A stretch of 36,440 bases of DNA from positions 1 to 36,440 of the IMG/VR virus record IMGVR_UViG_3300043331_000119. One strand, given 5' to 3'. Of this stretch, positions 13,870 to 35,780 are shown in pieces (the first letter of the stretch is position 1; every line of letters begins with the position of its first letter). The DNA comes from a virus. The translations under genes and the position numbers were made by a program. The notes under the pieces were generated by a model, which was not told where the DNA came from, made no database searches, and worked only from the letters and a program-made list of their open reading frames with translations.

Positions 13870-13885
13870 GAGCGTGCTGTAGAAG

Positions 13886-13961
13886 CTGGCTGTGAGAGTA
13901 ACTGGGCAACTCCACCGTCCATCCATGTCGGTACATGCAGGTTCAAATCCTGCCAGCCAGC
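13886..13961 (+). tRNA. Atypical tRNA, anticodon position reads UCC (Gly-like)
   Basis: All tRNA parts fall at standard spacing: acceptor CTGGCTG/CAGCCAG (7 bp perfect), D arm AGAG with an 11-nt loop, T arm GCAGG-TTCAAAT-CCTGC (5 bp perfect), 5-nt variable loop. The anticodon arm CCGTC-CATCCAT-GTCGG has one T-T mismatch and A instead of U at position 33; read strictly, the anticodon is UCC. The position before the acceptor (G) can pair with C73, as in tRNA-His, but no GUG anticodon is present. CCA is not encoded. It may be functional with an unusual loop, or a decayed tRNA. Confidence 0.55.
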
Positions 13962-13988
13962 CCCTAGAGTACGTTCAGAGAGGTAGAG

Positions 13989-15887: not shown

Positions 15888-16259
15888 ATGAGCAGCGATT
15901 CTCACAGGATGAATCCCAAGAGCCTTGCGAACCTTCGGCCTTGGCAAAAAGGACAGTCAGGAAATCCCAAGGGAAGGATTGACGGTTCGCGGAACAAGCT
16001 GGCTGAGGAGTTTTTGCGCGTTTTGGCCGAGGACTTCAAGGCTCATGGTGCTGAGGCTGTGAGGAAGGTGAGGGAGGAGCGACCTCAGGATTACGTGAAG
16101 GCCGTGGCGTTGATTCTGCCGAAGGAACACAAGGTCGAATACACCTTGATCCAACAGGTTCAGGAAATGTCAGACGAGGAGATTCTTGAGCGCCTTAGAC
16201 AGCTTGGACGACCTGAGCCCGCTGAAGCAGAAGTACCTTCTGACGCTACAGCTCATTGA
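15888..16259 (+). CDS. Putative terminase small subunit (DUF5681-type), 123 aa
   Basis: WQKGQSGNPKGRIDGSRNKL (about residues 18-37) is the KGQSGNPKGR motif of DUF5681 proteins that stand directly before terminase large subunits. A helix follows (AEEFLRVLAEDFKAHGAEAV), then YVKAVALILPKEHKVEYTLI, similar to the central domain of small terminases that bind the packaging site. It would recognise phage DNA and start packaging. ATG 15888 lacks a clear ribosome-binding site; ATG 15909 is possible. The end overlaps the large subunit by 74 nt. Confidence 0.7.
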   Translation: MSSDSHRMNPKSLANLRPWQKGQSGNPKGRIDGSRNKLAEEFLRVLAEDFKAHGAEAVRKVREERPQDYVKAVALILPKEHKVEYTLIQQVQEMSDEEILERLRQLGRPEPAEAEVPSDATAH

Positions 16260-17631
16260 GCGTGAGAAGGGTAGGAAGCTGTGGGCTTACTACCCTGAGA
16301 CTGGCGCGCTTCGTCGGGAGTTGTATCAGAAGCACCTAGCGTTCTTCAGGTTGGGCAAGGACCATCCGATTCGCGGATTCATCGCGGGCAACCGGACGGG
16401 GAAGACGGAAGGTGCGGGTGGTTACGAAGCGGTCCTGCACCTGACTGGCCTGTATCCCGATTGGTGGGAGGGGCATCGGTTTGCCCATCCGATCAATGCT
16501 TGGGCGGCGGGTGATACGGGCAAGACGGTTCGTGACATCTTGCAAGCCAAGCTCTTGGGGCCTCCGGGGGCGTTTGGTACGGGGCTGATTCCGAAAGCTT
16601 TCCTTCAGCGGACCACGCCGAAGTCTGGTGTTCCTGATGCGGTGGAGTCGATCATTGTCAGGCACGTGTCTGGCGGTGATTCGGTGTTGCAGTTGAAGTC
16701 TTACGATCAGGGGCGTGAAGCGTTCCAGGGAACTGAGCAGGACTTGATCTGGCTCGATGAGGAATCGGACGAAGGGATTCGCTCGGAATGCGTTACCCGC
16801 CTGCTGACAACCAGCGGCCTGTTGATCGAGACCTTTACGCCGCTGAAGGGGCTCACGCCGATGGTGAAGAACTACCTTCCCAGCGGCTACGACGGGCACA
16901 CGCGAGAGGTTGTATCGGACGGCAAGGCGCTGGTGATGGCCGGTTGGGACGATGTGCCTCACCTGGACGCTCGGGCCAAGGAGATTTTGCTCCGGGAGAC
17001 GCCGCCCTACTTGAGGCAGGCGCGCTCGTTAGGTGTTCCGTCGCTTGGGTCTGGCGCTATCTATCCGATCAGCGAGGACGAGTTCTGCGTTAAGCCGTTT
17101 GAGATTCCGAAGCATTGGCCGAGAGCCTATGCAATGGACGTGGGTTGGAATCGCACGGCAGTTCTTTGGGGCGCGCTGGATCGAGAATCCGAGACGATCT
17201 ACCTGTACTCAGAGCATTATCAAGGTCATGCGGAGCCCTCGGTGCATGCTGAAGCGATTCGGGCTCGGGGCAAGTGGATCAACGGGGTGCTTGATCCTGC
17301 CGCGCGTGGTCGGTCTCAGATCGACGGCCAGCGGCTCTTGGGCATCTACACCGACCTGGGGCTCAACATCTCGCCGGCCAAGAACGCGATTGAGGCTGGC
17401 ATACAGGCGGTATGGGAGCGGCTTTCTGGCGGCCGACTCAAGGTATTCAACACGCTGGCCAACTTCCGGGACGAGTACAGGATTTACCGACGTGATGAGA
17501 AAGGGCACATTGTCAAAGACAGGGATCACCTGATGGACGCTATGCGCTATCTCATCATGTCGGGCATGGATGTAGCTTCGACGGAGCCGACTGAAATGCG
17601 TGTGATGCCTCGACAGGGCGCGTTCGTATGA
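16186..17631 (+). CDS. terL: Terminase large subunit (packaging ATPase and nuclease), 481 aa
   Basis: DNA-packaging motor. ATPase: Walker A GNRTGKT (residues 68-74), Walker B LIWLDEE (187-193) with E192 as the likely catalytic glutamate, then a Ser/Thr-containing coupling motif (LIETFTPLKG, 213-222). Nuclease (RNase H-like): AMDVGW with D318, GVLDPAARG with D370, and KDRDHLMDAMRY with D451. Length is close to P22 gp2 (499). The start is TTG 16186, preceded by GAGGAGATTC and lying inside the small-subunit gene; no ATG is available earlier in the domain. The portal gene starts in its stop (ATGA). Confidence 0.9.
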   Translation: MSALDSLDDLSPLKQKYLLTLQLIEREKGRKLWAYYPETGALRRELYQKHLAFFRLGKDHPIRGFIAGNRTGKTEGAGGYEAVLHLTGLYPDWWEGHRFAHPINAWAAGDTGKTVRDILQAKLLGPPGAFGTGLIPKAFLQRTTPKSGVPDAVESIIVRHVSGGDSVLQLKSYDQGREAFQGTEQDLIWLDEESDEGIRSECVTRLLTTSGLLIETFTPLKGLTPMVKNYLPSGYDGHTREVVSDGKALVMAGWDDVPHLDARAKEILLRETPPYLRQARSLGVPSLGSGAIYPISEDEFCVKPFEIPKHWPRAYAMDVGWNRTAVLWGALDRESETIYLYSEHYQGHAEPSVHAEAIRARGKWINGVLDPAARGRSQIDGQRLLGIYTDLGLNISPAKNAIEAGIQAVWERLSGGRLKVFNTLANFRDEYRIYRRDEKGHIVKDRDHLMDAMRYLIMSGMDVASTEPTEMRVMPRQGAFV

Positions 17632-19613
17632 GTTACGGCAAGAAGGCTGACCGGGACGAATTTCAGGAGATTCTTGAGCGATTCGACTTGGCTTCGACGG
17701 CTGACAATATCAACCGTGCGGCCGCGCTGGACGACATCAAGTTCGCTCTCGTTCCTGGCAATCAGTGGGAAGAACATCAGAAGCGAGCCCGTGGCAAGCG
17801 CCCGTGCTACGAATTCAACAAGGTCCGGCAGCACATCCGGCAGGTCACGAATGACCAGCGCCAGAATCGCCCGGGGATCAAGGTTCGGGCCACGGATAGC
17901 AAGACCGATCCGAAACTGGCAGAAATACTAACCGGGCACATTCGGAATATCGAATCACAATCCAATGCTGAGCGAGCCTATGACACGGCGTTTGAGTACG
18001 CGGTGTCTGGTGGATACGGGTGCTGGCGAGTTGTCAAGGAATACTCTGACGATTCCAGTTTTGAACAGGAGTTGCGGATCAAGGAGATTCGCAATCCGTT
18101 CGCGGTGCATTTCGACCAAACGGCCCAGGAATGGGACTGTCGGGATGGGTGGTTCGCTTTTGTGTCGGAGATGATGCCGAAGGACGAGTACGAGCGTCTT
18201 TACCCTGGCAAGGAGGTTTCGAGCTTCGAGACTTCGCTGGGGACTCGACAGCTTCAGTGGTTAGACAAAGACACAGTGAGGGTTGCGGAGTACTGGTGCA
18301 GGAAGCCGGTTCAAAAGACCCTGCTGATGTTCTCGAACGGCGAGGTGGTTGAGAAAACGCCTGAGATTGAGAGCGTCTTGGACGAAATGGCCGCTACCGG
18401 GAAGGTGGTGGTTTCCGAGCGCGTGGTTGAAAGCTCGAAGGTAGAGATGTACCTCGTTTCTGGGGCTGGAATTCTGTCGGGTCCCCACAAGTGGGAGGGC
18501 AAGTACATTCCCATCGTTCCGGTGTGGGGCGACAAGCTGAACATTGAGGGCCGTGAGATTTACTCTGGCATGGTTCGGTTCACTAAGGACCCGCAACGCA
18601 CTCACAACTATCATCGGACAGTCGCTATTGAGATGGTGTCTCTCGCGCCAAAGTCGCCGTTTATCGGCACCAAGAAGATGTTCGAGGGATTGGGCGACAT
18701 CTGGAACAAGTTCAACGAGGAGCTTCTTGCGTGGCTGCCCTACAATCCTGACCCGAGCGCGCCTGGGGCTGCTCCACAGCGTTCGCCGGCTCCGGAGGTT
18801 CCTACGGCGCTCATGGCCTTGTCTGCGCAGGACGTTGAGGATATCAAATCCTCTACCGGGCAGTACAACGCATCGCTTGGGGATCGTTCTAACGAGACTT
18901 CTGGGCGCGCAATCATGGCCCGTCAGCGAGAGGGCGATGTTGCGACGTTCAACTACATTGACAATCTAGGCCGAGCGATCAAGTTCACTGGAGAAATCCT
19001 GGTGGACATCATCCCGAAGATTTACGACACGGAACGGTCAATTCGAGTGATGGGAGAGGATGGCAAGGAGGACTATGCCGTGCTTAACCAGACCGTTCTT
19101 GACCAGCAGACGCGCACCCCTGTGATAGTCAATGATCTATCCAAGGCCAAGTTCGATGTGTCGGTGAGTGTGGGGCCGAGCTACACGACTCAGCGGATGG
19201 AAACTGCCGAGGCGATGTTGCAGATAGCCAATTCCAACACGCCCGATGCGGTGATTGCGCGGTATCTGGCACTCAAGTCTCTTGACATCCCCGGGAGTGA
19301 TGAACTTCTGAAGGCCATGCGCAAGATGCTGGTTCAGCAGGGGTTGCTTGAGCCAGGGCCGGATGAGGAACCGCCGCAGCCTCCGCAGCCAGACCCCAAG
19401 ATGGTGGCAGAGATTCACAAGACTCTGGCGCAGACGGAGGGCATTCAGTTGGACAACGCCAAGAAGGCGCAGGATGTCCAAGAAGCCCCGTTGGATTCCG
19501 ACCTCAAAGAAGCCCAACTCATGGGCACGATTCTTGAAAACTTCATCAAGGCAGGTCGCTTGGGCATTGGTCCAGGCGGTCGCTTGATGATGATGGACCA
19601 GACGATTCAGTAA
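17628..19613 (+). CDS. Portal protein, P22 gp1-like (661 aa)
   Basis: Dodecameric ring at the capsid vertex through which DNA enters and leaves. Seen: the N-terminal helix with KADRDEFQEILERFDLASTA, QWEEHQKRARGKRPCYEFNK and RQHIRQVTNDQRQNRPGIKV, typical of the P22-type portal group, a central region with FHDQTAQEWDC-like motif (HFDQTAQEWDCRDGWFAF) and a long helical C-terminus with Pro/Gln and Ala/Gln-rich sequence (about 560-640) for the barrel. P22 gp1 has 725 residues. Start ATG 17628 overlaps the terminase stop. A small hairpin (CCCGG/CCGGG) lies after its stop. Confidence 0.85.
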   Translation: MSYGKKADRDEFQEILERFDLASTADNINRAAALDDIKFALVPGNQWEEHQKRARGKRPCYEFNKVRQHIRQVTNDQRQNRPGIKVRATDSKTDPKLAEILTGHIRNIESQSNAERAYDTAFEYAVSGGYGCWRVVKEYSDDSSFEQELRIKEIRNPFAVHFDQTAQEWDCRDGWFAFVSEMMPKDEYERLYPGKEVSSFETSLGTRQLQWLDKDTVRVAEYWCRKPVQKTLLMFSNGEVVEKTPEIESVLDEMAATGKVVVSERVVESSKVEMYLVSGAGILSGPHKWEGKYIPIVPVWGDKLNIEGREIYSGMVRFTKDPQRTHNYHRTVAIEMVSLAPKSPFIGTKKMFEGLGDIWNKFNEELLAWLPYNPDPSAPGAAPQRSPAPEVPTALMALSAQDVEDIKSSTGQYNASLGDRSNETSGRAIMARQREGDVATFNYIDNLGRAIKFTGEILVDIIPKIYDTERSIRVMGEDGKEDYAVLNQTVLDQQTRTPVIVNDLSKAKFDVSVSVGPSYTTQRMETAEAMLQIANSNTPDAVIARYLALKSLDIPGSDELLKAMRKMLVQQGLLEPGPDEEPPQPPQPDPKMVAEIHKTLAQTEGIQLDNAKKAQDVQEAPLDSDLKEAQLMGTILENFIKAGRLGIGPGGRLMMMDQTIQ

Positions 19614-19658
19614 CGTACCCGGCGTTTCCGGGGCTTCAATTCTCTCTAGGAGAGCGAC

Positions 19659-20465
19659 ATGACCGACCAGACTCCTGGCGCGGAAGCGCCTGCTGTTGCC
19701 GCTGAAGGACAGACTGAGCAGACGACCCAGCCGAATGCTGAGCCGACACCTGCCGGCCAAGGGAATGACCAAGGGGCACAGGCTACGCCCAAGAAGGTTC
19801 CGTGGTTTCAGGAACGCATCAACGAGTTAACGAGGGCACGACGTGAGGCAGAGCGAGAGCGGGACGCTTGGAGAGAACAGGCCAGCCGCACCGCCCAGCC
19901 TCCTAAACCAACGACTGAGCCGACACTAGAGCAGTTCGATTTCGACCAAGCCAAGTACGCAAAGGCGATGGCGGAGTACGTTGCTGAGCAGAAATTCAGT
20001 CACTGGCAGCAGGAACAGGCTCAGAAAGAGAAGCAGACCACGGCCCAGCAGAGGGTTCGGTCGTTTCTTGAGAAGGACGCGGCTTTCAAGGCTTCGACCC
20101 CGGACTATAAGGGGGCGCAGGAGCTTTCTGAGGACGCTTCTTTCCCGATTACCCAGGCGATGACCGAGGTGATTGCGGATTCTGAGATGGGTTCTGCCAT
20201 GCTCCACTACCTCGATACCCACCGCGAGGAAGCCTATGAGATTTCCAAGATGGGAGATTTCAAGGCTGCCGCAGCGTTGGGACGGATCGAGGCCAAGCTG
20301 ACTCGTGTTGATCCTGAAACGCCGGTTCCGACGAAAACAGTCACCAAAGCGGCTCCGCCCACGCCGACCGTGAAGCCTACGGCTCCTATCAAGAAGGAAC
20401 CCAAGGACATGACGGTTGATGAGTGGATGGAGCATAGAAACACGGAACTCAAACAACAGAGGTAA
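19659..20465 (+). CDS. Scaffolding protein (268 aa)
   Basis: Temporary internal scaffold for procapsid assembly, assigned by place between portal and coat and by composition: an acidic, Gln/Pro/Ala-rich N-terminus (about 1-50), long charged helices (RARREAERERDAWREQASRT and QFDFDQAKYAKAMAEYVAEQ), a Pro/Lys/Thr-rich linker (about 220-245) and a short basic C-terminal helix (DEWMEHRNTELKQQR), like the coat-binding helix of P22 gp8 (303 residues). CTAGGAGAGCGAC precedes ATG. No protease motif is seen. Confidence 0.8.
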   Translation: MTDQTPGAEAPAVAAEGQTEQTTQPNAEPTPAGQGNDQGAQATPKKVPWFQERINELTRARREAERERDAWREQASRTAQPPKPTTEPTLEQFDFDQAKYAKAMAEYVAEQKFSHWQQEQAQKEKQTTAQQRVRSFLEKDAAFKASTPDYKGAQELSEDASFPITQAMTEVIADSEMGSAMLHYLDTHREEAYEISKMGDFKAAAALGRIEAKLTRVDPETPVPTKTVTKAAPPTPTVKPTAPIKKEPKDMTVDEWMEHRNTELKQQR

Positions 20466-20471
20466 CGAGTC

Positions 20472-21704
20472 ATGGCTAATACACTGCTTACCATGCAGGA
20501 CATCACGCGCGAGGCGCTGCGTGTCCTGCATCAGAAGCTGAACTTTGTGAACAAGGTCAATCGTCAGTACGACGACCGATTCGCGAAGTCCGGCGCCAAG
20601 ATCGGCGACACGCTCTATGTGCGTCTGCCGAACAAATACACCACCCGAACCGGTGCGACCTTGGCCGTTCAGAACAGCGTCCAGCGCAAGGTGGACCTGC
20701 CTGTTTCGACCCAGAAGGGCGTGGACTTGTCGTTCAGCTCGGTTGAAATGACACTGAAGCTCGACAAGTTTTCGGATCAGTACCTCAAGCCTGCGATGGC
20801 GCAGCTTGCGGCCACCATCGAGTCGGACGCCTTCTCGATGTACAAGAAGGTTCCGAACTACGTCGGTGCTGTTTCCGGTCAGTTGGACTACAAGAAGTTC
20901 CAGCAGGGCGGTCAGGCGCTGACGGAGAATCTTGCCCCGCAGGACGACATGCGTTATGCGCATCTGTCGCCCAAGTCGCGGGTTGAATTCTCGGATGCCG
21001 TCAAGGGTCTTTTCCAGGACTCGGCGAACATCAAGGAGCAGTACCGTGATGGCATCGTGGGCCGTACCGGCGGATTCAACGTGTTTGAAAACACGATGAT
21101 TCCGACCCATACCCCTGGCGCGCATTCCGGTGGTACTCCGCTGACGAACGGTTCCAACCAGGGCAACGCCGGCACCGGCAACGCCTACGTTGCGACGACA
21201 GACCTCGTTACCGACGGCTGGACGGGTTCCAACACCCTGAAGGCTGGCGACATCATCACCATCGCCGACGTGTACGCGGTTCATCCTGAGACGAAGGTCT
21301 CGACTGGCGTTCTCAAGCGATTCACGGTGGTTAGCGATGTGTCGGATACCGGCGCTGACATGACCATCACCATTTCCCCGGCAATCATCTCTGGCGGTGC
21401 TTACCAGAACGTTGATGCGCTGGCTGGCGATGGCAAGGCCATTACGGTGCTTGGTACGGCTTCGACGGCCTACGGTCAGGATTTGATGTTCCACCGCGAC
21501 GCCTTCATCTTCGCGACTGCCGACCTTGAGGACATGAGTCCTTATGGGGTGCAGTGCTATCGCGAGGTGTTTGACGGCATTTCGATGCGCGTCATTCGCG
21601 GCTACGACATCAACAACGATCTGGCCCCGTGCCGAATTGACGTGCTGTATGGCTATGTTGCGGCGTACCCGGAACTTGCCTGCCGTCACGTCTACCAGCT
21701 CTAA
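20472..21704 (+). CDS. Major capsid protein, P22 coat-like (410 aa)
   Basis: HK97-fold coat subunit of the P22 type. The N-terminal segment MANTLLTMQDITREALRVLH is characteristic of P22-like coat proteins (gp5 starts with a similar 'ITREAL' helix), followed by NKVNRQYDDRFAKSGAKIGD, LYVRLPNKYTTRTGATLAVQ and VDLPVSTQKGVDLSFSSVEM. It ends with LYGYVAAYPELACRHVYQL, the family's final strand. 410 residues compares with 430 in P22. The strongly biased codon use and clean sequence fit a highly expressed gene. GAGG precedes ATG 20472 by about nine bases. Confidence 0.9.
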   Translation: MANTLLTMQDITREALRVLHQKLNFVNKVNRQYDDRFAKSGAKIGDTLYVRLPNKYTTRTGATLAVQNSVQRKVDLPVSTQKGVDLSFSSVEMTLKLDKFSDQYLKPAMAQLAATIESDAFSMYKKVPNYVGAVSGQLDYKKFQQGGQALTENLAPQDDMRYAHLSPKSRVEFSDAVKGLFQDSANIKEQYRDGIVGRTGGFNVFENTMIPTHTPGAHSGGTPLTNGSNQGNAGTGNAYVATTDLVTDGWTGSNTLKAGDIITIADVYAVHPETKVSTGVLKRFTVVSDVSDTGADMTITISPAIISGGAYQNVDALAGDGKAITVLGTASTAYGQDLMFHRDAFIFATADLEDMSPYGVQCYREVFDGISMRVIRGYDINNDLAPCRIDVLYGYVAAYPELACRHVYQL

Positions 21705-21715
21705 TAGGAGGGAAC

Positions 21716-22393
21716 ATGGCTAACTTTCAGCTTGACAATGGGTCGGGCGAGAATGTTTATTGCAATGGGCCTCTGATCCTCACGACTCTTGTGGCGACCA
21801 GTGGTCAGCATACGAACATCAACTCCGGCACCACATCCACCGATCTGGCGGGCAAGACCGTTCGGATCAATTCAATCACCAACACCGGAACGGCAAACAG
21901 CCTGATTGGCTTCCAGTCGAAGCCCCGTCAGGGGGCATCAATGGCGAACAACGTCATTGGTTGCGAGGTATCGGCTCAGATTAGCGATACCTTCGCCCTC
22001 ACGGGGTCAGGAAGCATCATTGGCGGCCATGTCGATACCTACCTGCGCGGCACTACTGGCAACATTGCCGGCGACGTCCGGGGCATGCAGATCGAGTTGG
22101 TAACCGATGACGCTGGCACCCGCACCATCTCTGGTGACGTGGTGGGGCTCCGGTTCCGCGCGGCGTTCTCCGGGACTATTTCCGGCGATATGGTCGCTAT
22201 CAAGGTCGAGAAGGCAGAAGCTCAGACGGGTTCCACCCAGTGGGAATACGTGCTTGAGTTGACTGACGTTAACGGCCTTGTCTGGGACGACGACTGGGGT
22301 ACAGAGCCTTCCACCGCGGCTGGCGGGTTCAAGGTCCGCATCAACGGACAGGACCGCTGGGTGCAGTGCTACAGCGGCGCGCCGGTGGCTTAA
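21716..22393 (+). CDS. Probable capsid-associated (decoration or head fibre) protein (225 aa)
   Basis: Directly after the coat gene with a strong AGGAGGGAAC site. The sequence is nearly all beta: repeated Gly/Thr/Ile units such as LTTLVATSGQHTNINSGTTS, GSGSIIGGHVDTYLRGTTGN and SGDVVGLRFRAAFSGTISGD, which resembles a trimeric or solenoid beta structure, ending GGFKVRINGQDRWVQCYSG. Position suggests a decoration or head fibre protein, but no family was recognised. Expression seems high. Confidence 0.55.
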   Translation: MANFQLDNGSGENVYCNGPLILTTLVATSGQHTNINSGTTSTDLAGKTVRINSITNTGTANSLIGFQSKPRQGASMANNVIGCEVSAQISDTFALTGSGSIIGGHVDTYLRGTTGNIAGDVRGMQIELVTDDAGTRTISGDVVGLRFRAAFSGTISGDMVAIKVEKAEAQTGSTQWEYVLELTDVNGLVWDDDWGTEPSTAAGGFKVRINGQDRWVQCYSGAPVA

Positions 22394-22572
22394 TGGAGAC
22401 TAAGGCCGACTGGATTTCTGCCCTGAAGAAACGCAAGGCAGAGTACGAGGACAAGCGACAGCAGTTGATCATGGACGCCAACGCCTACGGAGGCGCCGTT
22501 CAGGATTGCGACTACTGGATTGCCGAGCTCGAAAAGGCCGATAAGCCCAAGGAGGTTGAAGGGGGGGCGTAA
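22393..22572 (+). CDS. Small coiled-coil protein (59 aa)
   Basis: METKADWISALKKRKAEYED with KRQQLIMDANAYGGAVQDC is one long helix ending in a Glu/Lys tail. Start ATG overlaps the stop of the previous gene (TAATG). Its last codons carry a strong AAGGAGG and the 5' arm of the hairpin that serves the next gene, so this coding sequence is under a double constraint. Similar short helical proteins in phage head genes have no proven role. Confidence 0.55.
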   Translation: METKADWISALKKRKAEYEDKRQQLIMDANAYGGAVQDCDYWIAELEKADKPKEVEGGA

Positions 22573-22591
22573 GCTCCCCCTTCTCTTTATG
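22549..22591 (+). promoter_or_regulatory. Shine-Dalgarno plus hairpin that sets the start of the gp4-like gene
   Basis: AAGGAGG (22549-22555) lies 33 nt before ATG 22589, too far to work directly. Between them is an 8-bp perfect hairpin, GAAGGGGG (22558-22565) and CCCCCTTC (22576-22583). When folded, the gap shrinks to seven unpaired bases. No other Shine-Dalgarno is near the ATG. The stop codon of the previous gene lies in the loop. Confidence 0.6.
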
Positions 22592-22993
22592 GCTACAGGA
22601 ACTGAAGTCATTTACAAGGCGCTTCGTCTGATTGGAGCAAAAGCCCAAGGACAGACTCCATCAGCTGAAATAGTCGCCAACTACCTTGAAACCTTGAACG
22701 ACATGCTGCTTCGCTGGGAGGCGAGCGGTATCAGCATGGGGTTTTCTCCATTGTCAGATGCATCATCGACATTGCCGATTCCAGATCCTGCGCTTCTTGC
22801 GGCCAAGTACAACTTAGCTATTCTCATGGCGCCTGAGCTTGGCAGGGAAGTGGCGCCTGAGGTAGTGGCCATTGCGGAATCTTCACTGGCCGCTCTTAGA
22901 AACGATGCGATCCCTGTCCCGAGATTGAATCCTGACACCCCGAGACAGGAGTCCGGGCGAATCTACGACATTACGACCGGGCAGTACATCTGA
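22589..22993 (+). CDS. Tail accessory factor, P22 gp4-like (134 aa)
   Basis: Predicted head-completion protein that binds the portal ring and closes the filled head. EVIYKALRLIGAKAQGQTPS, AEIVANYLETLNDMLLRWEA and LAAKYNLAILMAPELGREVA with a polar C-terminus (RQESGRIYDITTGQYI) match the P22 gp4/gp4-like family, which is 166 residues in P22. Located before the gp10-like gene, as in P22. Start ATG 22589 has no adjacent Shine-Dalgarno; the upstream hairpin probably solves this. The gene's TGA overlaps the next ATG. Confidence 0.75.
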   Translation: MATGTEVIYKALRLIGAKAQGQTPSAEIVANYLETLNDMLLRWEASGISMGFSPLSDASSTLPIPDPALLAAKYNLAILMAPELGREVAPEVVAIAESSLAALRNDAIPVPRLNPDTPRQESGRIYDITTGQYI

Positions 22994-24381
22994 TGCGCAT
23001 TCCGCTCCTTGGCCAATCTGACAGTCGGAGTTCGAGCAACTTCAACTATCAGAAAACTCTGAACTTCTATCTTGAGCAGGCTCAGGATGGACGAAGCGCG
23101 TTGATGTTGGTCAATCGTCCTGGACAACTTGATTTTGCGACGTGTGGATCGGGCCCGATTCGTGGCGGACAGGAATTCAACGGTGTTGGGTACGTAGTTT
23201 CTGGAGATACGTTCTACACGGTAACTCCGGGTGGCACCGCAACCAATCGCGGCACGCTCAGCACATCATCCGGCCGTGTTTACATGGCTTTTAACGGCAC
23301 ACAGGTCATGGTGACTGATGGATCGGCCGGTTACATTTACACGCTTGCCACCGGGGTATTTGCAGCGATTGCTGATGCTGATTTCGTGTACTACGGGCCA
23401 TGTACCTATATCAACTCGTATTTCATTGCTGTTGAGCCCGCCTCTGGGCGAGCCGGTCAGTCTGCTATCAACGATGGAACAAGCTGGGCAGCTTTGGACG
23501 TGGCGACCGCAGAATCATCGCCTGACAATCTCAAGGCTGTTCTCGCGGATCACGACGAATTGTTGATGTTGGGGGACAAGACGATAGAGCCTTGGTACAA
23601 CGATGCGGGGACGGATTTCAGCTTCACGCGGTACATTGGGGCCCAAGCAGAGGTTGGCTTGGCCGAGCCCGCTGCAATTTGCAAGACGGACGAAGGGGTT
23701 TTCTTCCTAGGCGACGATTTGATCTTCTATCGTCTCCAAGGAAGGCAACCCGTGAGGGTGTCGCATCATGGGGTCGAGACGGCCCTACAGGGCTATGCCT
23801 CGATTTCTGGGGCTCTCTGTTTCACCTACGACTGGAAAGGTCACAAGTTCGTACATCTCACGGTCCCCAACGAAGGGACGTGGGTTTATGACGTGTCCAA
23901 CGGAGGCTGGACGGAAAACGGGACGTTTGATGAAAACGATTGGAAGGTAGCGTGCGCTTTCCACTTGGGCCAGAAAGCCATCGTCGGATCGAGTGTTGAT
24001 GGTCAGCTCTACGAGCTAAGCGATTCCACGTATACGGATGATGGCGGCGTCCTAGAGCGTTTGCGACGGACTCAGAACATCGTTCAGGATCAAAAACTGG
24101 TGTTCTGGAATCGACTTGAGTTGGTGTTCGAGTCTGGGGTGGGTCTCCTATCCGGTCAGGGATCATCGCCACAAGTGATGCTGCGGTGGTCTGAGGATGG
24201 TGGCCACACGTGGGGCACTGAGATTTACCAGAGCCTCGGGGCGACTGGCGAGTACGGCTGGCGAGCGGTTTTTGACATGCTCGGGGCTTCGTATCAGAGA
24301 ATCTACGAGATTCGAGTTACCGACCCGGTGAAAGTCATTCTGATTGACGCTTTCGCCGACGTGACGGTAGGTAGGCACTAA
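22993..24381 (+). CDS. Packaged-DNA stabilisation / tail hub protein, P22 gp10-like (462 aa)
   Basis: Predicted tail adaptor following gp4. The N-terminus RIPLLGQSDSRSSSNFNYQK with NFYLEQAQDGRSALMLVNRP and LDFATCGSGPIRGGQEFNGV is characteristic of this family. The rest is beta-propeller-like with repeated strands (VYMAFNGTQVMVTDGSAGYI, WVYDVSNGGWTENGTFDEND) and ends with KVILIDAFADVTVG. P22 gp10 has 472 residues. It links the portal-gp4 assembly with the needle and tailspikes. TGATG overlap with the upstream gene; TAATG with the next. Confidence 0.85.
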   Translation: MRIPLLGQSDSRSSSNFNYQKTLNFYLEQAQDGRSALMLVNRPGQLDFATCGSGPIRGGQEFNGVGYVVSGDTFYTVTPGGTATNRGTLSTSSGRVYMAFNGTQVMVTDGSAGYIYTLATGVFAAIADADFVYYGPCTYINSYFIAVEPASGRAGQSAINDGTSWAALDVATAESSPDNLKAVLADHDELLMLGDKTIEPWYNDAGTDFSFTRYIGAQAEVGLAEPAAICKTDEGVFFLGDDLIFYRLQGRQPVRVSHHGVETALQGYASISGALCFTYDWKGHKFVHLTVPNEGTWVYDVSNGGWTENGTFDENDWKVACAFHLGQKAIVGSSVDGQLYELSDSTYTDDGGVLERLRRTQNIVQDQKLVFWNRLELVFESGVGLLSGQGSSPQVMLRWSEDGGHTWGTEIYQSLGATGEYGWRAVFDMLGASYQRIYEIRVTDPVKVILIDAFADVTVGRH

Positions 24382-25100
24382 TGCCATTGTCAAACGACGT
24401 AGCGCGTCGGTTGATGGCTTTGAAGCCGCCTGTCTACGGAGGTAATGATCCGGCAGGCAAAGCTTTCTCGGCAGAGATGGAGCGGTGGTGGCAGCGGGTT
24501 GGCGCGGCGCTTGGGCCTGCACTCGGGTATGCATACGACAAGGAAACCGAAATTATCACGGTCCCCGAGGACACGGATATTGAAGGACGAACCGGAGAAC
24601 CTGTTGGAGACATCGTTCAGAACCTGAACGTATCTGGTGACATTCGTGATGCAATGGAGTTTCAGGCCCGGCCTGGAATTCAGGCGAAGAACTTCGTTCA
24701 GCGGATTGACGGTAACGGGACGGGTATAGATGTTCGATTGATTCCCGTGAGTAAGGGAGCAAATCTTGGTTCGGCCATTGTTGGTGCGAGCCCACTATCT
24801 AGCTCAGATGACGGTTTAGATGCAGAGGTAACGATTTCAGGATTTACAGTTCAGTTTGACTTCGGGACGCTTGCTGTGTCAGGTGGGCAGATTACAGGGT
24901 TGGCTTATACGACGTTGTACAACATCGTATTAAGAGGATTCAGCTATACGGATGGATCGTGGTCGTCCGCCACGGCTGAGACTAGTGATGCTGATACTAC
25001 AGACGATGAGAACGTATTCTACGTTGGTAGCATCACAACGGCCGCTGCTGCCGGGCCACCGACTGGCGGCCAAGGCGGTGGGGGGCATTACGACCCATGA
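24381..25100 (+). CDS. Hypothetical virion protein at the tail-needle position (239 aa)
   Basis: In P22 this place is held by the needle protein gp26 (233 residues), but here no long trimeric coiled coil is seen. An N-terminal helix (PLSNDVARRLMALKPPVYGG, AFSAEMERWWQRVGAALGPA) is followed by beta-rich sequence with Gly/Thr/Asn and a fibronectin-like end (AEVTISGFTVQFDFGTLAVS, VLRGFSYTDGSWSSATAETS), then a Gly-rich tail. It could be a short tail fibre or a needle replacement; assignment is by position only. Confidence 0.5.
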   Translation: MPLSNDVARRLMALKPPVYGGNDPAGKAFSAEMERWWQRVGAALGPALGYAYDKETEIITVPEDTDIEGRTGEPVGDIVQNLNVSGDIRDAMEFQARPGIQAKNFVQRIDGNGTGIDVRLIPVSKGANLGSAIVGASPLSSSDDGLDAEVTISGFTVQFDFGTLAVSGGQITGLAYTTLYNIVLRGFSYTDGSWSSATAETSDADTTDDENVFYVGSITTAAAAGPPTGGQGGGGHYDP

Positions 25101-25387
25101 CTTACTCCTACGGAGGCAGACAGGCGACCATCACGATTCGTCGCGGCGGTGTTGTCAAAGGGTTCTATGTAGTTGCAGTTGATGTTGATGAAGTGGATGC
25201 CGAAGGCGAGGATGTCATCGGGATCGACTTCAGTATTTCTCAATCCATGTGGCTTGAGGGATATAGGACCAAGGCAACAACCAACCAGACGACGTTGGAA
25301 TCAGAGGTAAACCTCGGGATAGACGCCATGATAGCAACTGCCAAGCGACGTTTCAGAGATGCGGTGGATGCAGAGGCCCTTGGTTAG
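25097..25387 (+). CDS. Hypothetical virion-region protein (96 aa)
   Basis: TYSYGGRQATITIRRGGVVK and GFYVVAVDVDEVDAEGEDVI form an acidic beta part, followed by a C-terminal helix (NLGIDAMIATAKRRFRDAVD). Start ATG 25097 overlaps the previous stop. The end overlaps the acetyltransferase gene. No recognisable family. Confidence 0.5.
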   Translation: MTYSYGGRQATITIRRGGVVKGFYVVAVDVDEVDAEGEDVIGIDFSISQSMWLEGYRTKATTNQTTLESEVNLGIDAMIATAKRRFRDAVDAEALG

Positions 25388-25814
25388 AGAGGCTGGGCCA
25401 TTAGACCTGCCTGAGATTATGGCTCTGTGCCGTCGATTCTTTGAGGCAAGCGGCTACAGGTCGTTTGGATTCGATGAGGAATCCATGCTCGGCACGCTTC
25501 GTCGGCTCATGGATCACCCGGACGGCGTGGTTTTGGTCGCTGATGGCGGGATGGTCGCCGGGGTCGTTTATCCTGTGTTCTTCAATCAATCTCACCGACA
25601 AGCTCAGGAGCTTTTCTGGTGGGTGGACGATGAAGCACGAGGGTCAGGTGTTGGGCGAGACCTGATACGTGCTTTTGAGAAATGGGCAAAGTCTAACGAC
25701 TGTAAGACGGTTTCGATGCTATGCCTTGAAGCCCTAGAGGCTGACAAGGTTGAAAAACTCTATCTGCGGTCAGGGTACAAACCGACCGAGCGCGCGTTCG
25801 TGAAGGAGTTGTGA
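25359..25814 (+). CDS. GNAT-family N-acetyltransferase (about 150 aa)
   Basis: VREAGPLDLPEIMALCRRFF is the usual GNAT start, GMVAGVVYPVFFNQSH the central strands, and DEARGSGVGRDLIRAFEKWA holds the acetyl-CoA binding R-G-x-G-x-G turn, followed by CLEALEADKVEKLYLRSGYK as the C-terminal motif B. Enzymes of this family transfer acetyl from acetyl-CoA to amines; the substrate is unknown. A position in the virion block suggests modification of a virion or host protein. Starts at ATG 25359 or 25368 are possible; no clear Shine-Dalgarno decides. Confidence 0.75.
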   Translation: MRWMQRPLVREAGPLDLPEIMALCRRFFEASGYRSFGFDEESMLGTLRRLMDHPDGVVLVADGGMVAGVVYPVFFNQSHRQAQELFWWVDDEARGSGVGRDLIRAFEKWAKSNDCKTVSMLCLEALEADKVEKLYLRSGYKPTERAFVKEL

Positions 25815-25815
25815 T

Positions 25816-26751
25816 ATGGGCCTGAGTTCTCTTGGTGGAACCCTGTTGGGCGGTACCAATGTCGGTGGTTACATTGCCGCGGGGGATGCGGCTGATGCAC
25901 AGGCCGCTGCCGCCAGACGCGCCAATCAGACGCAGATGGATATGTTCAATCGGGCGATTGAACTGGCCGCGCCTTGGCGAAATGCAGGCTCATCTGCGCT
26001 GCCGTTGATCCAGAGTTTTCTCGGGATCGGTGGCGGTGGTGTTACTTCCCTGCCAGGAACCACGACCCAAGGCGGAGGGGCGTTAGCCAGTAGATTCCCA
26101 GAAAGCGATATTGCCCCCAAGCCCAGCGGACCTGGGATGCCTTCTGGTACGCCTGGACAGGCGCCGATGAGTGGGCTTGAGTCATTCCTCAACAGCACAG
26201 GGTACCAGTTCAATCTGCGCGAGAATGAAAACGCACTGTCTCGCATGCTTGCTCGTAGCGGGCAACTTGGCTCAGGGCGTGCGCAGCGTGAGGCGTTGAA
26301 TCTCAGCACCAATCTTGCTCAGCAAGGCGCCGGGAATTACCTACAGCAGCTCATGCAACTGGCCGGCCTTGGGGCTGGGCCCGCTATGCAGGGCGGCCAG
26401 CAGGCGCTTCAGACGGGTTCTAACATCGGTCAGAACCAGTTGTTTGCCGGGCAGGCGCGCGCGGGTGGATACATCAACCAAGCCAATGCATTGAGCAATC
26501 TTGTGAATCAGGGCGCCATGTTGGCCGGCTATTCTGACCGTCGCTTGAAGCGTGACATTCGGACTGTGGATCGGATGGGGCCGTTGAACGTCTATGCCTT
26601 CAAGTATCTTTGGGACGACACAGAGCGCATTGGCTTCATGGCTGATGAGGTCGAGCAGGTGGTTCCAGAAGCGGTTTTTGAGGACTCGCGCGGTTACAAG
26701 CTAGTCAATTATCCGAAGGCTCTAAAGGCGGTGACGTATGGCGTTGCCTGA
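25816..26751 (+). CDS. Putative ejection/internal virion protein with C-terminal S74-type chaperone segment (311 aa)
   Basis: The N-terminal half is Ala/Gly-rich (YIAAGDAADAQAAAARRANQ, QMDMFNRAIELAAPWRNAGS), similar to phage DNA-transfer proteins, with a Gly/Pro-rich linker (about 70-120) and helices after it (YLQQLMQLAGLGAGPAMQGG). The last 72 residues begin YSDRRLKRDI, with S240 and K245 fitting the S74 auto-proteolytic chaperone dyad, then YAFKYLWDDTERIGFMADEV and EAVFEDSRGYKLVNYPKAL. It is shorter than a full intramolecular chaperone domain. Position fits P22 gp14/gp7. ATG 25816 is one base after the acetyltransferase stop. Confidence 0.6.
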   Translation: MGLSSLGGTLLGGTNVGGYIAAGDAADAQAAAARRANQTQMDMFNRAIELAAPWRNAGSSALPLIQSFLGIGGGGVTSLPGTTTQGGGALASRFPESDIAPKPSGPGMPSGTPGQAPMSGLESFLNSTGYQFNLRENENALSRMLARSGQLGSGRAQREALNLSTNLAQQGAGNYLQQLMQLAGLGAGPAMQGGQQALQTGSNIGQNQLFAGQARAGGYINQANALSNLVNQGAMLAGYSDRRLKRDIRTVDRMGPLNVYAFKYLWDDTERIGFMADEVEQVVPEAVFEDSRGYKLVNYPKALKAVTYGVA

Positions 26752-27766
26752 GTTCCAGTTCGCCAATCCTGTCGGGGCCTTTTTGCAAGGCAAGCAGACG
26801 AAGCAGGCAGAACAGAGCAATGCGCTGTCTGACTTGATCCGTCAGCGTCAGTTGAAGGAATTTGACACGCAGGATCAGACGCGACAGCAGCAAGGAGAAG
26901 TTGAGGCGCGGCAGGATTTGCAGCAGGCCATCGCCTGGGTGAACCAAGGGGCGAATGATGCAGAGAAGGCCCAGCGGTGGGATCAGGCGGTAGACTTCTA
27001 CGTGAAGTCTGGTCGTCCTCAAGCAGCGCAGTACAAAGGCCGCGTAGACCTCCTTCCGATGCTGGTATCTCAGCTTCCTCAGCCAAAGCCTGAAATTCGT
27101 GAAGTTGCTCCTGGTACGACCGTCCTCAAGGACGGCAAGCCGGTTTATCAGGCGCCGTTCAAGCCCGAGGAGAAGAAGCCTCCGAGTGGCTCACTCATCG
27201 AGCTTGTATCTCCCCAAGGACAAAAACAGACCATCCGACAGGATGATCCTCAAGTTGATGCGATGGTACAGCAGGGATGGAAGGTTGCGCCAAAAGATGC
27301 TCAATCTAAGCCTCTCACCGCCGAAGCGGCTGGCAAGGTTGCCCTATATGAGAATGCTCTGCGTGATGCCAGATCGCTTGCTGATAAGTTGATTATCAAG
27401 GATGCGAAAGGGAATGTGACTGGGTATCGCGACGTTCAAGCGGTGACGCCGGCCAACTGGCGGCTGCTCACGAATGCTATTCGTTCAAAGCTCCGGGCTG
27501 AATCTGGTGCAACCATCACTCAAGATGAAGTCGAGGGAGAATTAGCTCGCTATGGTGTTAGTGCGATTTCGTCAGATCAGACAAACGCAGAGGCGCTAAC
27601 GCGACTCATCAGCGACCTTGAAAACCAAATAGGACAAGTGCAGGGGGGCGGAAGAATCAACCAGCCAGCCCAACCAAGCAACGCTCAAGAGATAACAGCA
27701 GTCAATCCTCAGACTGGCGAGCGAATCGTTCTGCGCAATGGGCAATGGGTTCCCTATGGCCGATAA
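26738..27766 (+). CDS. Putative ejection protein, P22 gp20/gp7 position (342 aa)
   Basis: Placed between the S74-containing gene and a gp16-sized protein, as P22 gp7/gp20 are. A long coiled-coil-like N-terminal region, rich in Gln (FLQGKQTKQAEQSNALSDLI, RQRQLKEFDTQDQTRQQQGE), is followed by KWDQAVDFYVKSGRPQAAQY-like helical repeats and a Pro/Lys-rich stretch (about 118-150), then a C-terminal region with YENALRDARSLADKLIIKDA. Such proteins are injected with DNA and form a conduit through the periplasm. Its ATG overlaps the previous gene by 14 nt. Confidence 0.6.
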   Translation: MALPEFQFANPVGAFLQGKQTKQAEQSNALSDLIRQRQLKEFDTQDQTRQQQGEVEARQDLQQAIAWVNQGANDAEKAQRWDQAVDFYVKSGRPQAAQYKGRVDLLPMLVSQLPQPKPEIREVAPGTTVLKDGKPVYQAPFKPEEKKPPSGSLIELVSPQGQKQTIRQDDPQVDAMVQQGWKVAPKDAQSKPLTAEAAGKVALYENALRDARSLADKLIIKDAKGNVTGYRDVQAVTPANWRLLTNAIRSKLRAESGATITQDEVEGELARYGVSAISSDQTNAEALTRLISDLENQIGQVQGGGRINQPAQPSNAQEITAVNPQTGERIVLRNGQWVPYGR

Positions 27767-29579
27767 CGTGCCGCCGCTCCCTGCCGGGTTTCAGCTCGAA
27801 TCCACGCCGCCGCTACCTCCTGGGTTTCAGTTGGAAGGCGATCAAGAGCAAGAAGCGGCGGAAACCGCACCTGGATTCTTCGGCTCTGAAGGAATGGAAG
27901 CGTTTGCCCAGGGTGTTGTCAGAGGTGTTCCGCAGCCACAAGGCTTGCCGGACGATCCTCGTTTCGCCGCCTTTCGGCAACAGCGACAGCAGGAGCTTGG
28001 AGAAAGCCATCCTGGTGCGACATTAGCCGGTCAATTGGTTGCTGGCGCCCCAGAGGTGCTTGTTCCTGGAGGTGGGGCTAGAGCAGCGACTCGGATAGGC
28101 ATTGATGCGCTTGTAGGGGCTGCACAGGGCGCCATTCCTGCGGCTATACAGGGCGGTACGCCAGATGAATTGGCCGCTGGTATTGGTGCTGGGGCTGCTT
28201 TAGGCTCCCTCCCGCAGACAGCCTTGGCTGGTGTCCGTGCGGCGCGGCCAGCGGTCACGAATGTCATGGACCGCGCTCGACAGGTGGCAGGATTCCAGAC
28301 TCCTGGCATGGCGCAGCGTTTGGGCGCTACCAATTTGACGCCAGAGGCCCAAGCTCGACTTGAGGCCGCTCGACGGCTCGGAATCCAGATTACCCCGGCC
28401 GAGGCCGCTGGTGACCCGGTACTGGCTGCCAGACAGGGCGGCCTCGGAACCTCTGAGGCTGGCGCTCGTCGGATGACGGATTTCCAGCAAGGTCGCGCAA
28501 CGGTTCAGGCCGAGAACATCGGTTCGGCGCTTCGCGGGATTTCTACTGAGGAAGGGAGCGCCGCGCTTCGTGTTAGGGATGTCGCAAAGGACATTATCAA
28601 GAAGCGGTCTGATGCCTTGCAAGAGAAGGCTAAGCCGCTCTACGACAAGCTTGATAAAATCAAGGTTCCTCGCAAACTTGCCGATCGGTTCATCAAAGAC
28701 CCGTTGATTCTTGATACGCTTCGTGAGATTTCGCGCGATCCGGTCTGGGCAAGCGAACTTAGGAAGTTGCCACAGTCGTCTATTACACGCTTCGATCTAG
28801 TTAAGCGTCGTTTGGATGATATGCGCTCAACGGCGATGCGAGCAGGTGAGCGAGACCGTGCTCGATTGATCGGCGAGGCCCGCAATAGGCTCGTTAACGC
28901 GCTCGACAAGTTCGCTCCTGACTACAAGGCCGCTCGGCTAGCCTATAGCGAAGATGCTCCGGCGCTTCAGGCGCTCAGGGACAGCCCGTTGGGCAAGGTC
29001 GCTTCTCTGGAAGATGCCGACCTTAAGAAAGTCACCAAGATGCTGTTTGATCCTTCGGAGATTGATCCGAAACAGGTTGCGGCTGTACGACGAGAATTCC
29101 TCAAAGCCGATCCGGCGGCATGGCGGCAGATTCTCAGAAACGAGATGGAAAGGCGCCTAGACGCCGTGGCCGGAGAGCGTACCGGCGACAGCTTCTATCG
29201 CAACATCCTTGCGAAGCCGAGGGACTTTGAGCTTTTCATGCGCGCAGCGGATGGGCTGCCTGAAGTACAGAAAAAGCTCGTTGATATGCGGAAGGTCTAT
29301 CCTGTGTTGACTCAGGCGCAGACCGTGCGCGGAGCGGCCGGCAAGGCCCAGCAGAACCTCGACGCACCGCGTAACATGTACGATGCCATCGCGACGACGC
29401 TCAAGAACGTCTCTGGTGGCCGGATGGACAAGGCGGCTGTTGAGTTGATTACCGATCCTAAATGGGATTCCGCGTGGAGCCAAGTTTCTCAGGCTCAACC
29501 ATCTAAGCGTCCAGAGATTATAGCGACGCTAATAGCTCGCGCTGCCGCAGGACAATCTGGAGACAACAATGGCAACTAG
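27756..29579 (+). CDS. Putative ejection/DNA-transfer protein, P22 gp16-like (607 aa)
   Basis: Size (607 versus 609) and position match P22 gp16. The N-terminus repeats LPAGFQLES and LPPGFQLEG (about residues 6-27), a short tandem motif seen in large phage internal proteins. Then come Gly/Ala-rich hydrophobic stretches (about 90-150: AGQLVAGAPEVLVPGGGARA, IGAGAALGSLPQTALAGVRA) that could enter membranes, and a long helical region with repeated KLxDK and ARL segments. The C-terminus is Ser/Ala-rich. ATG 27756 overlaps the previous gene by 11 nt. It has no lysozyme motif. Confidence 0.65.
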   Translation: MADNVPPLPAGFQLESTPPLPPGFQLEGDQEQEAAETAPGFFGSEGMEAFAQGVVRGVPQPQGLPDDPRFAAFRQQRQQELGESHPGATLAGQLVAGAPEVLVPGGGARAATRIGIDALVGAAQGAIPAAIQGGTPDELAAGIGAGAALGSLPQTALAGVRAARPAVTNVMDRARQVAGFQTPGMAQRLGATNLTPEAQARLEAARRLGIQITPAEAAGDPVLAARQGGLGTSEAGARRMTDFQQGRATVQAENIGSALRGISTEEGSAALRVRDVAKDIIKKRSDALQEKAKPLYDKLDKIKVPRKLADRFIKDPLILDTLREISRDPVWASELRKLPQSSITRFDLVKRRLDDMRSTAMRAGERDRARLIGEARNRLVNALDKFAPDYKAARLAYSEDAPALQALRDSPLGKVASLEDADLKKVTKMLFDPSEIDPKQVAAVRREFLKADPAAWRQILRNEMERRLDAVAGERTGDSFYRNILAKPRDFELFMRAADGLPEVQKKLVDMRKVYPVLTQAQTVRGAAGKAQQNLDAPRNMYDAIATTLKNVSGGRMDKAAVELITDPKWDSAWSQVSQAQPSKRPEIIATLIARAAAGQSGDNNGN

Positions 29580-31236
29580 CGTTCTTGCGCCTCTACAACA
29601 AATTTTGACTTCTTCTGGCGCTCTTGGGTCTGGATTGAAGCTGTTTGTTTACGTTCCTGGCACAACGACAAAGCTCAACACCTATCCAACCGCTGCTGAC
29701 GCAGACGCAGCCACCAACGCCAACACAAATCCCGTAGTTCTCAATGCAAGAGGTGAGCCGACATCGGGTGGAATCTGGGTTCCTGATTCAATAGCGGATG
29801 GTGCTGTCAAACTGGTGCTTGCTCTCTCTACTGATTCAGACCCACCAACATCTCCCATAAGGACGCAAGATAATTTCAGGTTGTTTGACGCCTCTGTTGT
29901 AGATGATATTGACACGATAAATGAGAATCAGAGAACCAAAGGCATTTACAAGATTCCTTCGTCTCTCGGTCACTATATCGGCAGCAACATTTTCTATCGA
30001 AAGAGAAAGGACGGCTCTGCGGAACTCATCAACGATCTATCGGCCTATTACCCGTCTGGAGCTTTTGCTCCGTTGAGCGATCCTGCGCTTACGGTTTATT
30101 ACGTCGATCCGGTGAACGGAGACGATTCTTACAGCGGCGTGAACTGGTCGAATGCTCTCAAAGGGGTGGATGTGGCCCTTGCGAAATCCGATGTTGACGT
30201 CGTGGCGATCAAGGGCGGGACGACCATCCGCGTCGGCGACCACATGGGGACCTATTCAGGCACGCGAGATATCGTGATGGTCGGCGTCGGTGAGCGCGTG
30301 AGAATGACTACCGCTTCCGGGAACGCATGGTCTGCTACTGGCGGCGCAACGCCCAATGTCTACGAGCAGACTTCCGGCGGCACCGTGGTTATGGTTGCTG
30401 ACGCGCGATCAATTGATAGTACCGGGTGGTATTCCAGGTTGACCAATGTTGCGAGCATTGCTTTGGTCAATTCAACGCCAGGTAGTTGGTTCTACGATAG
30501 CGGAGCTGGTAAGACCTATATTCGGCTGTCTGATGATGCCGATCCATCATCGGCAACTATCGCGGCCGATGTTTTTGCGCTGCGCGCATCGCCAATGCGC
30601 GTGGATGCCAACGACATCAAGTTCTATATGGGGAACATTCACTTCATTGGCGGGAGCGGCGGCGCTTTCTCGGCTCGCGATGCGACAGCTAACACCGTCG
30701 TCATTGCCGAGGACTGTCTGTTTTCGCACATGTACAACTCCGATGCGGTTGACATTGCCGATATTGGTCTGTTCGTTGCAATCAGGTGCGGCGCTGGCGG
30801 ATCGTTCGAGGATGGGTTTTCATACCGCGAACTCAACGGCCTATCGCCTGATTTCATAGAGGTTGACTGCTGGTCTACAGGAAACTACGGTGATGACACG
30901 TCGAACGGATCGACAGCGCATAACAGCGTACGCGGTATTCGCTTGAACTGCGACTACGGGTTCAACACCGGGCCTGGGGTTGCCGATGTGAACTCGTCCA
31001 AGACCTACAACGTCAACATTACATCTAGAAACAATACCGGTAGTTCCAATGCCGGCGGTGTACAGGCCACTGGCACTGCTGAGGTTTGGTACGATGGCTT
31101 AGCCGCCAGCGACAACCAAGCGCAGGACGCTCGTGCCGCTGATACATCGACGTTTCATTATCGAGATATGTGGATCGAGGACGTTGATGTTGATAACGAA
31201 GATGGCACGTCAACCATAGATCAAAATTTCTCATAA
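29569..31236 (+). CDS. Tailspike 1, with N-terminal anchor domain (555 aa)
   Basis: Receptor-binding tailspike. Residues 1-122 are an adaptor (LKLFVYVPGTTTKLNTYPTA, NPVVLNARGEPTSGGIWVPD), the kind that fixes tailspikes to the virion, with a short linker. From 123 onward is a beta-helix body: VYYVDPVNGDDSYSGVNWSN, DVDVVAIKGGTTIRVGDHMG and HFIGGSGGAFSARDATANTV. Acidic residues for polysaccharide hydrolysis cannot be assigned from sequence alone. The body is paralogous to the next gene, with identical order of motifs and a near-identical end (TSTIDQNFS). ATG overlaps the previous gene by 11 nt. Confidence 0.75.
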   Translation: MATSVLAPLQQILTSSGALGSGLKLFVYVPGTTTKLNTYPTAADADAATNANTNPVVLNARGEPTSGGIWVPDSIADGAVKLVLALSTDSDPPTSPIRTQDNFRLFDASVVDDIDTINENQRTKGIYKIPSSLGHYIGSNIFYRKRKDGSAELINDLSAYYPSGAFAPLSDPALTVYYVDPVNGDDSYSGVNWSNALKGVDVALAKSDVDVVAIKGGTTIRVGDHMGTYSGTRDIVMVGVGERVRMTTASGNAWSATGGATPNVYEQTSGGTVVMVADARSIDSTGWYSRLTNVASIALVNSTPGSWFYDSGAGKTYIRLSDDADPSSATIAADVFALRASPMRVDANDIKFYMGNIHFIGGSGGAFSARDATANTVVIAEDCLFSHMYNSDAVDIADIGLFVAIRCGAGGSFEDGFSYRELNGLSPDFIEVDCWSTGNYGDDTSNGSTAHNSVRGIRLNCDYGFNTGPGVADVNSSKTYNVNITSRNNTGSSNAGGVQATGTAEVWYDGLAASDNQAQDARAADTSTFHYRDMWIEDVDVDNEDGTSTIDQNFS

Positions 31237-31247
31237 AAAGGATAACA

Positions 31248-32534: not shown

Positions 32535-32542
32535 GGTCAGTC

Positions 32543-33127
32543 ATGGACAAGAGCTACGGAATACAGCGAGTAAAAACAGCGAATGTGTTTCGCGGCACGG
32601 CAACGCCTCGCGCGCAGTCTAAGGACGATTTCTGGTGGGATGAAAACACCACCCCTGCGCTTCTCAAGCAATGCACTACGGTGCCATCGACGTGGCAGGC
32701 CGTGTTTGACGTATCGCAGGGGACGTGGACGCCGGCTATTACGTTCGCGACTCCTGGCGATCTGGCTGTAACGTATTCAACTCAGTTGGGGTGGTGGCAT
32801 AGAACAGGCAAAAAGTACGAGTTCTCAGGAAATATCACCACGTCAGCGTTTACCCATACGACGGCATCTGGAGAATTTCGCATTACGGGGTTGACGGTCA
32901 CCTCGTCTAATACAGCGAACCGAGTTATTGTTGGACCTTGTGCGTGGCGCGGTATTACCTATGCCGTGGCCAGAGACGATACATCATGCGAAATTCAGGC
33001 CAATGTAAACTACCTGCGGCTTTTTGGTTCGGCATCTGGCGCAACTATCGACACGGTTGATGCGGCCGATGTGCCGACTGGCGGGACGATTCAACTTCGA
33101 TTCTCAATCAGCTTCCTGGTGGACTAA
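32543..33127 (+). CDS. Tail fibre accessory protein, carbohydrate-binding-like domain (194 aa)
   Basis: The second half, FDVSQGTWTPAITFATPGDL, TYSTQLGWWHRTGKKYEFSG, TTASGEFRITGLTV, is the GTWTPxLTF...FxHTTASGxxRITGL domain that ends many phage fibres, probably a trimeric beta-sandwich that binds sugars. The first 60 residues (KDDFWWDENTTPALLKQCTT) could attach it to the spikes. ATG 32543 follows GAGGTCAGTC; a GTG at 32531 overlaps the previous stop and is an alternative. Confidence 0.6.
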   Translation: MDKSYGIQRVKTANVFRGTATPRAQSKDDFWWDENTTPALLKQCTTVPSTWQAVFDVSQGTWTPAITFATPGDLAVTYSTQLGWWHRTGKKYEFSGNITTSAFTHTTASGEFRITGLTVTSSNTANRVIVGPCAWRGITYAVARDDTSCEIQANVNYLRLFGSASGATIDTVDAADVPTGGTIQLRFSISFLVD

Positions 33128-33534: not shown

Positions 33535-33749
33535 TGGCTAAGGAACCCACCCGCGAACTTGTGATGATCGTCGTCGAGGAAGCGCTTGAGGCTAAGGGCT
33601 TTCCTCCTGGCGAGGATGAGGAACGCGAGACCCGTCTGGATATGGCGTTTCTGAGGCGTTGTAGGCTGTTCTGGGAGGCCCGTGCCGGTACGGTGAAATG
33701 GGCCGTCGGACTTGCGTTTGCGGCTCTTATCGGAGGGTGGTTGAGATGA
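33534..33749 (+). CDS. Small protein with C-terminal membrane helix, lysis region (71 aa)
   Basis: A cytoplasmic charged part (KEPTRELVMIVVEEALEAKG, DEERETRLDMAFLRRCRLFW) and one hydrophobic helix near the end (KWAVGLAFAALIGGWL, residues 55-70). This layout is frequent beside phage amidases, and it may be a holin accessory or a tail-anchored regulator. ATG 33534 overlaps the amidase stop (TGATG) and the next gene overlaps its stop (ATGA). Confidence 0.6.
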   Translation: MAKEPTRELVMIVVEEALEAKGFPPGEDEERETRLDMAFLRRCRLFWEARAGTVKWAVGLAFAALIGGWLR

Positions 33750-34701: not shown

Positions 34702-34709
34702 GAGGCTCT

Positions 34710-35779: not shown

Positions 35780-35780
35780 T

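Follow-up and report, generated by a model that had tools for sequence, protein, structure and literature searches.

A terminator-like hairpin following the capsid module of a P22-like late operon may also bridge a split ribosome binding site for the adaptor gene behind it, in the manner of T4 genes 38 and 25; judging from sequence comparison and predicted folds, we put the chances of this dual role at about even. The window (the whole 36,440-nt stretch of the virus record analysed here) had been described in a sequence-only reading as carrying a hairpin that brings a distant Shine-Dalgarno sequence (SD) to the gp4-like start codon. The anatomy of the junction, the 7-nt spacing left when the hairpin is excised, the lack of another SD and the comparison with other phages spoke for that proposal; what it had overlooked was the second, terminator-like explanation of the same hairpin.

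The late operon of the window comprises genes for portal, scaffold and capsid proteins, a 225-aa gene, a 59-aa gene, a gp4/Ad3-like adaptor and a gp10-like head closure protein. The features that define the junction are as follows.

20472 to 21704, plus strand: P22-like major capsid gene (PF11651, E 3e-44).
21716 to 22393, plus strand: 225-aa gene without assigned function, between the capsid gene and the hairpin (relatives in L068, L180 and KX853510).
22393 to 22572, plus strand: 59-aa ORF, whose 3' end holds the distal SD and the 5' arm of the hairpin (homolog in L068, E 3e-8).
22549 to 22556, plus strand: distal SD AAGGAGGT, in the terminal K-E-V codons of the 59-aa ORF (anti-SD duplex, -12.0 kcal/mol).
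22558 to 22583, plus strand: hairpin with arms 22558-22568 and 22573-22583 and a GUAA loop at 22569-22572 (-22.3 kcal/mol).
22570 to 22572, plus strand: TAA stop codon of the 59-aa ORF, in the hairpin loop (from the sequence).
22584 to 22588, plus strand: TCTTT, the single-stranded spacer from hairpin to ATG, which doubles as the T-rich tail (from the sequence).
22589 to 22993, plus strand: gp4/Ad3-like head-tail adaptor gene, 134 aa, start ATG 22589 (phrog_637, head-tail adaptor Ad3, E 2e-12).
22993 to 24381, plus strand: gp10-like head closure gene (Hc3), its start overlapping the gp4-like stop (phrog_578, E 6e-105).

Both the profile match and the position before the gp10-like gene identified the adaptor as a P22 gp4/Ad3 relative. 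The 225-aa gene and the start of the 59-aa ORF overlap at TAATGG, and the two form a cassette (21716-22572) that separates the capsid gene from the hairpin. Searches of Pfam and PHROG returned no match to either cassette gene. Relatives of the cassette sit in very different phages, namely L180 (72%), L068 and Virus Rctr197k (KX853510); by inspection, a similar 51-aa ORF occupies the equivalent place in L180 (4603-4758).

Read 5' to 3', the junction consists of AAGGAGG (22549-22555), TT, the hairpin, TCTTT and ATG (22589-22591). The distance of 33 nt from AAGGAGG to the ATG was confirmed by the sequence, as was the claim that excising the 26-nt hairpin leaves 7 nt (TT plus TCTTT). The stem had been described as a perfect 8-bp helix; it is in fact 11 bp long (GAAGGGGGGGC/GCUCCCCCUUC), with one G-U pair and a GUAA tetraloop of the GNRA type. 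The statement that the ATG has no other site also stood, the best proximal anti-SD duplex reaching -0.6 kcal/mol compared with -12.0 kcal/mol for the distal one. The sole proximal 4-nt anti-SD match is TAAG, formed from the stop codon, and no gene start surveyed in the window had a stronger duplex than the distal one. The elements of a split ribosome binding site are found here: a strong SD that lies too far from its start and has no alternative and, on the predicted fold, a stable hairpin leaving a functional spacing.

No other 26-nt segment on the plus strand of the 36 kb was predicted to be as stable as the hairpin, and the probability of its core pairs was close to 1.0. In dinucleotide shuffles of the 150-nt leader, a comparable hairpin beside the ATG arose in 82 of 20,000 trials, and 1 of the 20,000 combined it with an SD, 6 nt or longer, immediately 5' of the hairpin. 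The combination of SD, hairpin and ATG in this leader is beyond chance. Other properties of the junction speak against bridging. The SD is also the coding sequence for K-E-V in the codons that the phage usually employs (AAG 158:38, GAG 151:92). In predicted folds, the SD pairs weakly with CUUU and the AUG pairs with early codons; opening the SD and start region would cost about 7.5 kcal/mol, to be set against the -12.0 kcal/mol from the SD duplex. An Rfam search gave only chance-level matches.

T4 gene 38, cited as precedent in the sequence-only reading, proved a valid one: a hairpin between genes 37 and 38 shortens the SD-AUG distance from 22 to 5 nt (PMC3014915). The two junctions share an SD, a GC hairpin, a few nucleotides and the AUG. 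They differ in that the T4 SD overlaps the upstream stop codon (TAAGGAG) whereas the SD of the window lies inside coding sequence, and in that the T4 stem, closed by UUCG, is the shorter one, whereas that of the window has 11 bp and the upstream stop in its loop. At the T4 gene 26-25 junction, an 'accommodated' or split ribosome binding site, the distance falls from 27 to 11 nt and, in the account that the review PMC3014915 gives of Nivinskas 1999 and of Malys and Nivinskas 2009, mutations destabilising the hairpin reduce initiation. Gene 25 is a closer match than gene 38 with respect to the SD, which lies within the upstream coding gene with the hairpin between it and the AUG. Unlike the upstream gene of the window, which stops in the loop, gene 26 reads through the hairpin to the start of gene 25, and the hairpin of the window is far more stable and terminator-like. 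A third system is the split ribosome binding site of E. coli thrS, which contains a long folded hairpin that the ribosome can accommodate (Sacerdot et al., as cited in PMC3936740). It resembles the window in having such a hairpin within the ribosome binding region. The accommodated hairpin of thrS lies upstream of the SD, and not between SD and AUG as in the window.

Genes 38 and 25 of T4 are established cases backed by mutational data (PMC3014915). The T4 cases have so far been treated as curiosities. A scan of all P22-like loci and T4 for the same layout recovered the window, T4 gene 38 as the positive control, L161 and a weaker case, L169. In L161 and its close sibling L162, the order is TAAGGA, hairpin, ATTTTT and ATG. 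This layout is at 6645-6680, before a 251-aa ORF (phrog_1574) soon after the capsid gene, and the two are closely similar contigs from one assembly. In L284, a P22-like phage with an adaptor of the same family (phrog_637), the capsid gene stop overlaps AGGAG and is followed by a hairpin, GTTTTCTT and the ATG; its excised spacing of 14 nt is above the ideal and counts against bridging.

When IMG/VR was scanned for a pattern built on one common hairpin core, at least 120 matches had AGGAG before the core and 58 had a permuted motif there, a rough comparison since the first count is a lower bound and the permuted control, GAGAG, is imperfect (some of its matches contain AGGAGAG). Among the matches listed, 70 distinct leaders are followed by an open frame of roughly 60 codons or longer, and the genes that they precede are a 92-aa family, tail-tubular-A (phrog_394), a relative of T4 gene 38 (L283), the L284 adaptor and about 20 single genes. 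The 92-aa family (MAYS...KAPKTLGNQLGRW..., L187-L303, e.g. L202 2975-3250) is without a PHROG match and accounts for 25 distinct IMG/VR leaders with SD-GGGGCTTCGGCCCC-ATG among the matches listed. Of 14 loci checked, most have the upstream stop codon right next to the SD, and their SDs are thus no by-products of coding.

Excised spacing was narrowly distributed. It was 6-9 nt in 21 of 23 independent representatives among the matches listed; random re-pairing of the leader halves placed 53% in this range on average and reached the observed value in 0 of 5000 trials, although re-pairing breaks the stem extension too and is not a pure test of spacing. For tail-tubular-A leaders among the matches listed, the excised spacing was 7 nt in 17 of 19, though the linear distance differs (25 or 27). 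Two variable pairs at the base of their stem change on both sides (GC/UA/AU and UA/CG), with a covariation of 0.217 compared with 0.052 after shuffling. These leaders have no U tract, hence their hairpin is not an ordinary terminator. The tail-tubular-A cases include L188, L192, L207, L214 and L285, the last directly following a capsid gene. The order SD-hairpin-ATG was absent from the tail-tubular-A leaders of the isolates L355-L359 (Pelagibacter, Methylophilales, Vibrio and Alteromonas phages, with distant genes), and the layout is therefore not universal in this gene. At the level of sequence, the constrained excised spacing and the covariation at the stem base support bridging as a recurrent phage device, and the layout recurring before late genes of unrelated phages looks like a real, under-noticed way to start translation. 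They are the strongest evidence at hand that hairpins of this type bridge SD and AUG, and for the window itself they bear on the question indirectly.

Searches of IMG/VR with the gp4, gp10, capsid and portal proteins of the window found no near neighbour, or distant ones only. L068 and L180, which of all carriers of the 59-aa gene come nearest, lack the window junction, and their 59-aa homologs end differently. Conservation of the pairing in direct relatives could therefore not be shown; the orthologous adaptor gene of L284 has an independent hairpin.

A possible second role of the hairpin emerged from a comparison of 166 capsid-bearing relatives. A strong hairpin was located within 100 nt of the capsid stop in 102 of the 166 loci, compared with 16.8 after shuffling and 18 within the capsid gene. 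Hairpins with a T-rich tail occurred at 50 loci, compared with 2.2 after shuffling and 2 within the capsid gene. In phages with a short gp4 (e.g. L025, L050, L058, L073, L079 and L134), a terminator-like hairpin directly precedes gp4. The window hairpin ranked as the top terminator-like site of 16000-36000. Its stem is GC-rich (8 G-C among 11 bp), and the C run is followed by UUCUCUUU, an interrupted U tract. It resembles the terminator-type hairpins found after the capsid gene of relatives, sharing with them a GC-rich stem and a T-rich tail, here interrupted, between the capsid and adaptor genes. Since hairpins of this kind are found family-wide after the capsid gene, it need not have arisen for translation. 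The usual order in P22-like phages is stop-hairpin-SD-ATG, whereas that of the window is SD-hairpin-ATG, and in the window the two-gene cassette comes between capsid gene and hairpin. Where relatives with a hairpin just before gp4 have a recognisable SD, it lies between the hairpin and the ATG, which speaks against bridging; the gap from hairpin to ATG is 13-24 nt in the short-gp4 relatives with a recognisable SD compared with 5 nt in the window.

These data bear on a simpler account, somewhat doubtful in our judgement, in which the hairpin following the capsid module is solely an intrinsic terminator or attenuator (or stabilises the 3' end), ribosomes on read-through mRNA reach gp4 by termination-reinitiation at the 59-aa stop, 16 nt before the start, and AAGGAGGT is without role. 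The strong enrichment of T-rich-tailed post-capsid hairpins in the family agrees with it, and so does the window hairpin, which with its tail TTCTCTTTAT outranks all other terminator-like sites in the late region. Against it, the T tract is broken by a C and the stop codon is part of the loop, unlike in the listed post-capsid hairpins with a tail, which begin at least 3 nt after the stop. Reinitiation would fit several other starts of the operon (portal, gp10-like), which overlap the stop of the gene before and have no SD, and the SD-less gp4 starts of relatives, 8 of 12 of which overlap or abut a stop. The 16-nt gap from stop to start falls outside that overlap class, which favours bridging a little. 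Reinitiation would also make it a coincidence that the strongest SD stands at exactly 7 nt of excised spacing, and a terminator alone leaves the layout in unrelated genes without U tracts unexplained.

The position of the 59-aa stop codon in the GUAA loop also suggests gated coupling, as proposed in the sequence-only reading, in which ribosomes terminating at the UAA would open the stem and make the output of the adaptor depend on how much the 59-aa ORF is translated. The 5' arm, the loop and the SD would all lie under a ribosome terminating there. We consider this unlikely: an opened stem abolishes the bridge, which makes the sign of any gating effect ambiguous, and a stop in the loop was seen in none of the other instances examined, most of those checked having it directly against the SD. 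A different start codon, such as the TTG at 22556 directly after the SD, is in frame with the adaptor gene and would add 11 residues, but it has zero spacing to the SD and was rejected as very improbable because the first Met of all gp4-like relatives aligns with ATG 22589 (15 sequences).

To return to a terminator-like hairpin that also bridges a split site, the junction could have arisen in a few steps. A post-capsid hairpin of the P22-like late operon would be the starting state, the 225-aa and 59-aa cassette would have been inserted between capsid gene and hairpin, and an SD across the hairpin would now serve the adaptor start. This order of events seems to us the simplest history. At present, the hairpin would end part of transcription after the capsid module, and on read-through mRNA it would fold between SD and AUG so that the 30S subunit sees 7 nt. 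Use of the bridge by ribosomes here, partial termination at the hairpin and any gating in the loop are what we infer from this arrangement.

A wider proposal can be put forward only tentatively: stop-SD-hairpin-AUG sites may be widespread in late phage operons and recurrent at the capsid-adjacent adaptor gene, with the excised spacing under selection, and the window hairpin may also end part of transcription and be opened by ribosomes stopping in its loop, setting the capsid:adaptor ratio. If the recurrence is functional, models of ribosome binding sites and start annotation that view only 4-15 nt upstream would misjudge some phage late genes, and the misjudged gene would often be the adaptor, of which few copies must be made alongside the abundant capsid protein. 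The recurrence supplies natural variants with covarying stems, which makes the old bridging idea directly testable, and its distribution across phages deserves a study of its own.

Elsewhere in the window, a tRNA-Gly gene (anticodon tcc) was found at 13885-13964, between the early and late regions, and an open frame on the minus strand (5044-5784) contains a long alanine/aspartate-rich repeat (DAAADAAAYAADAA...).
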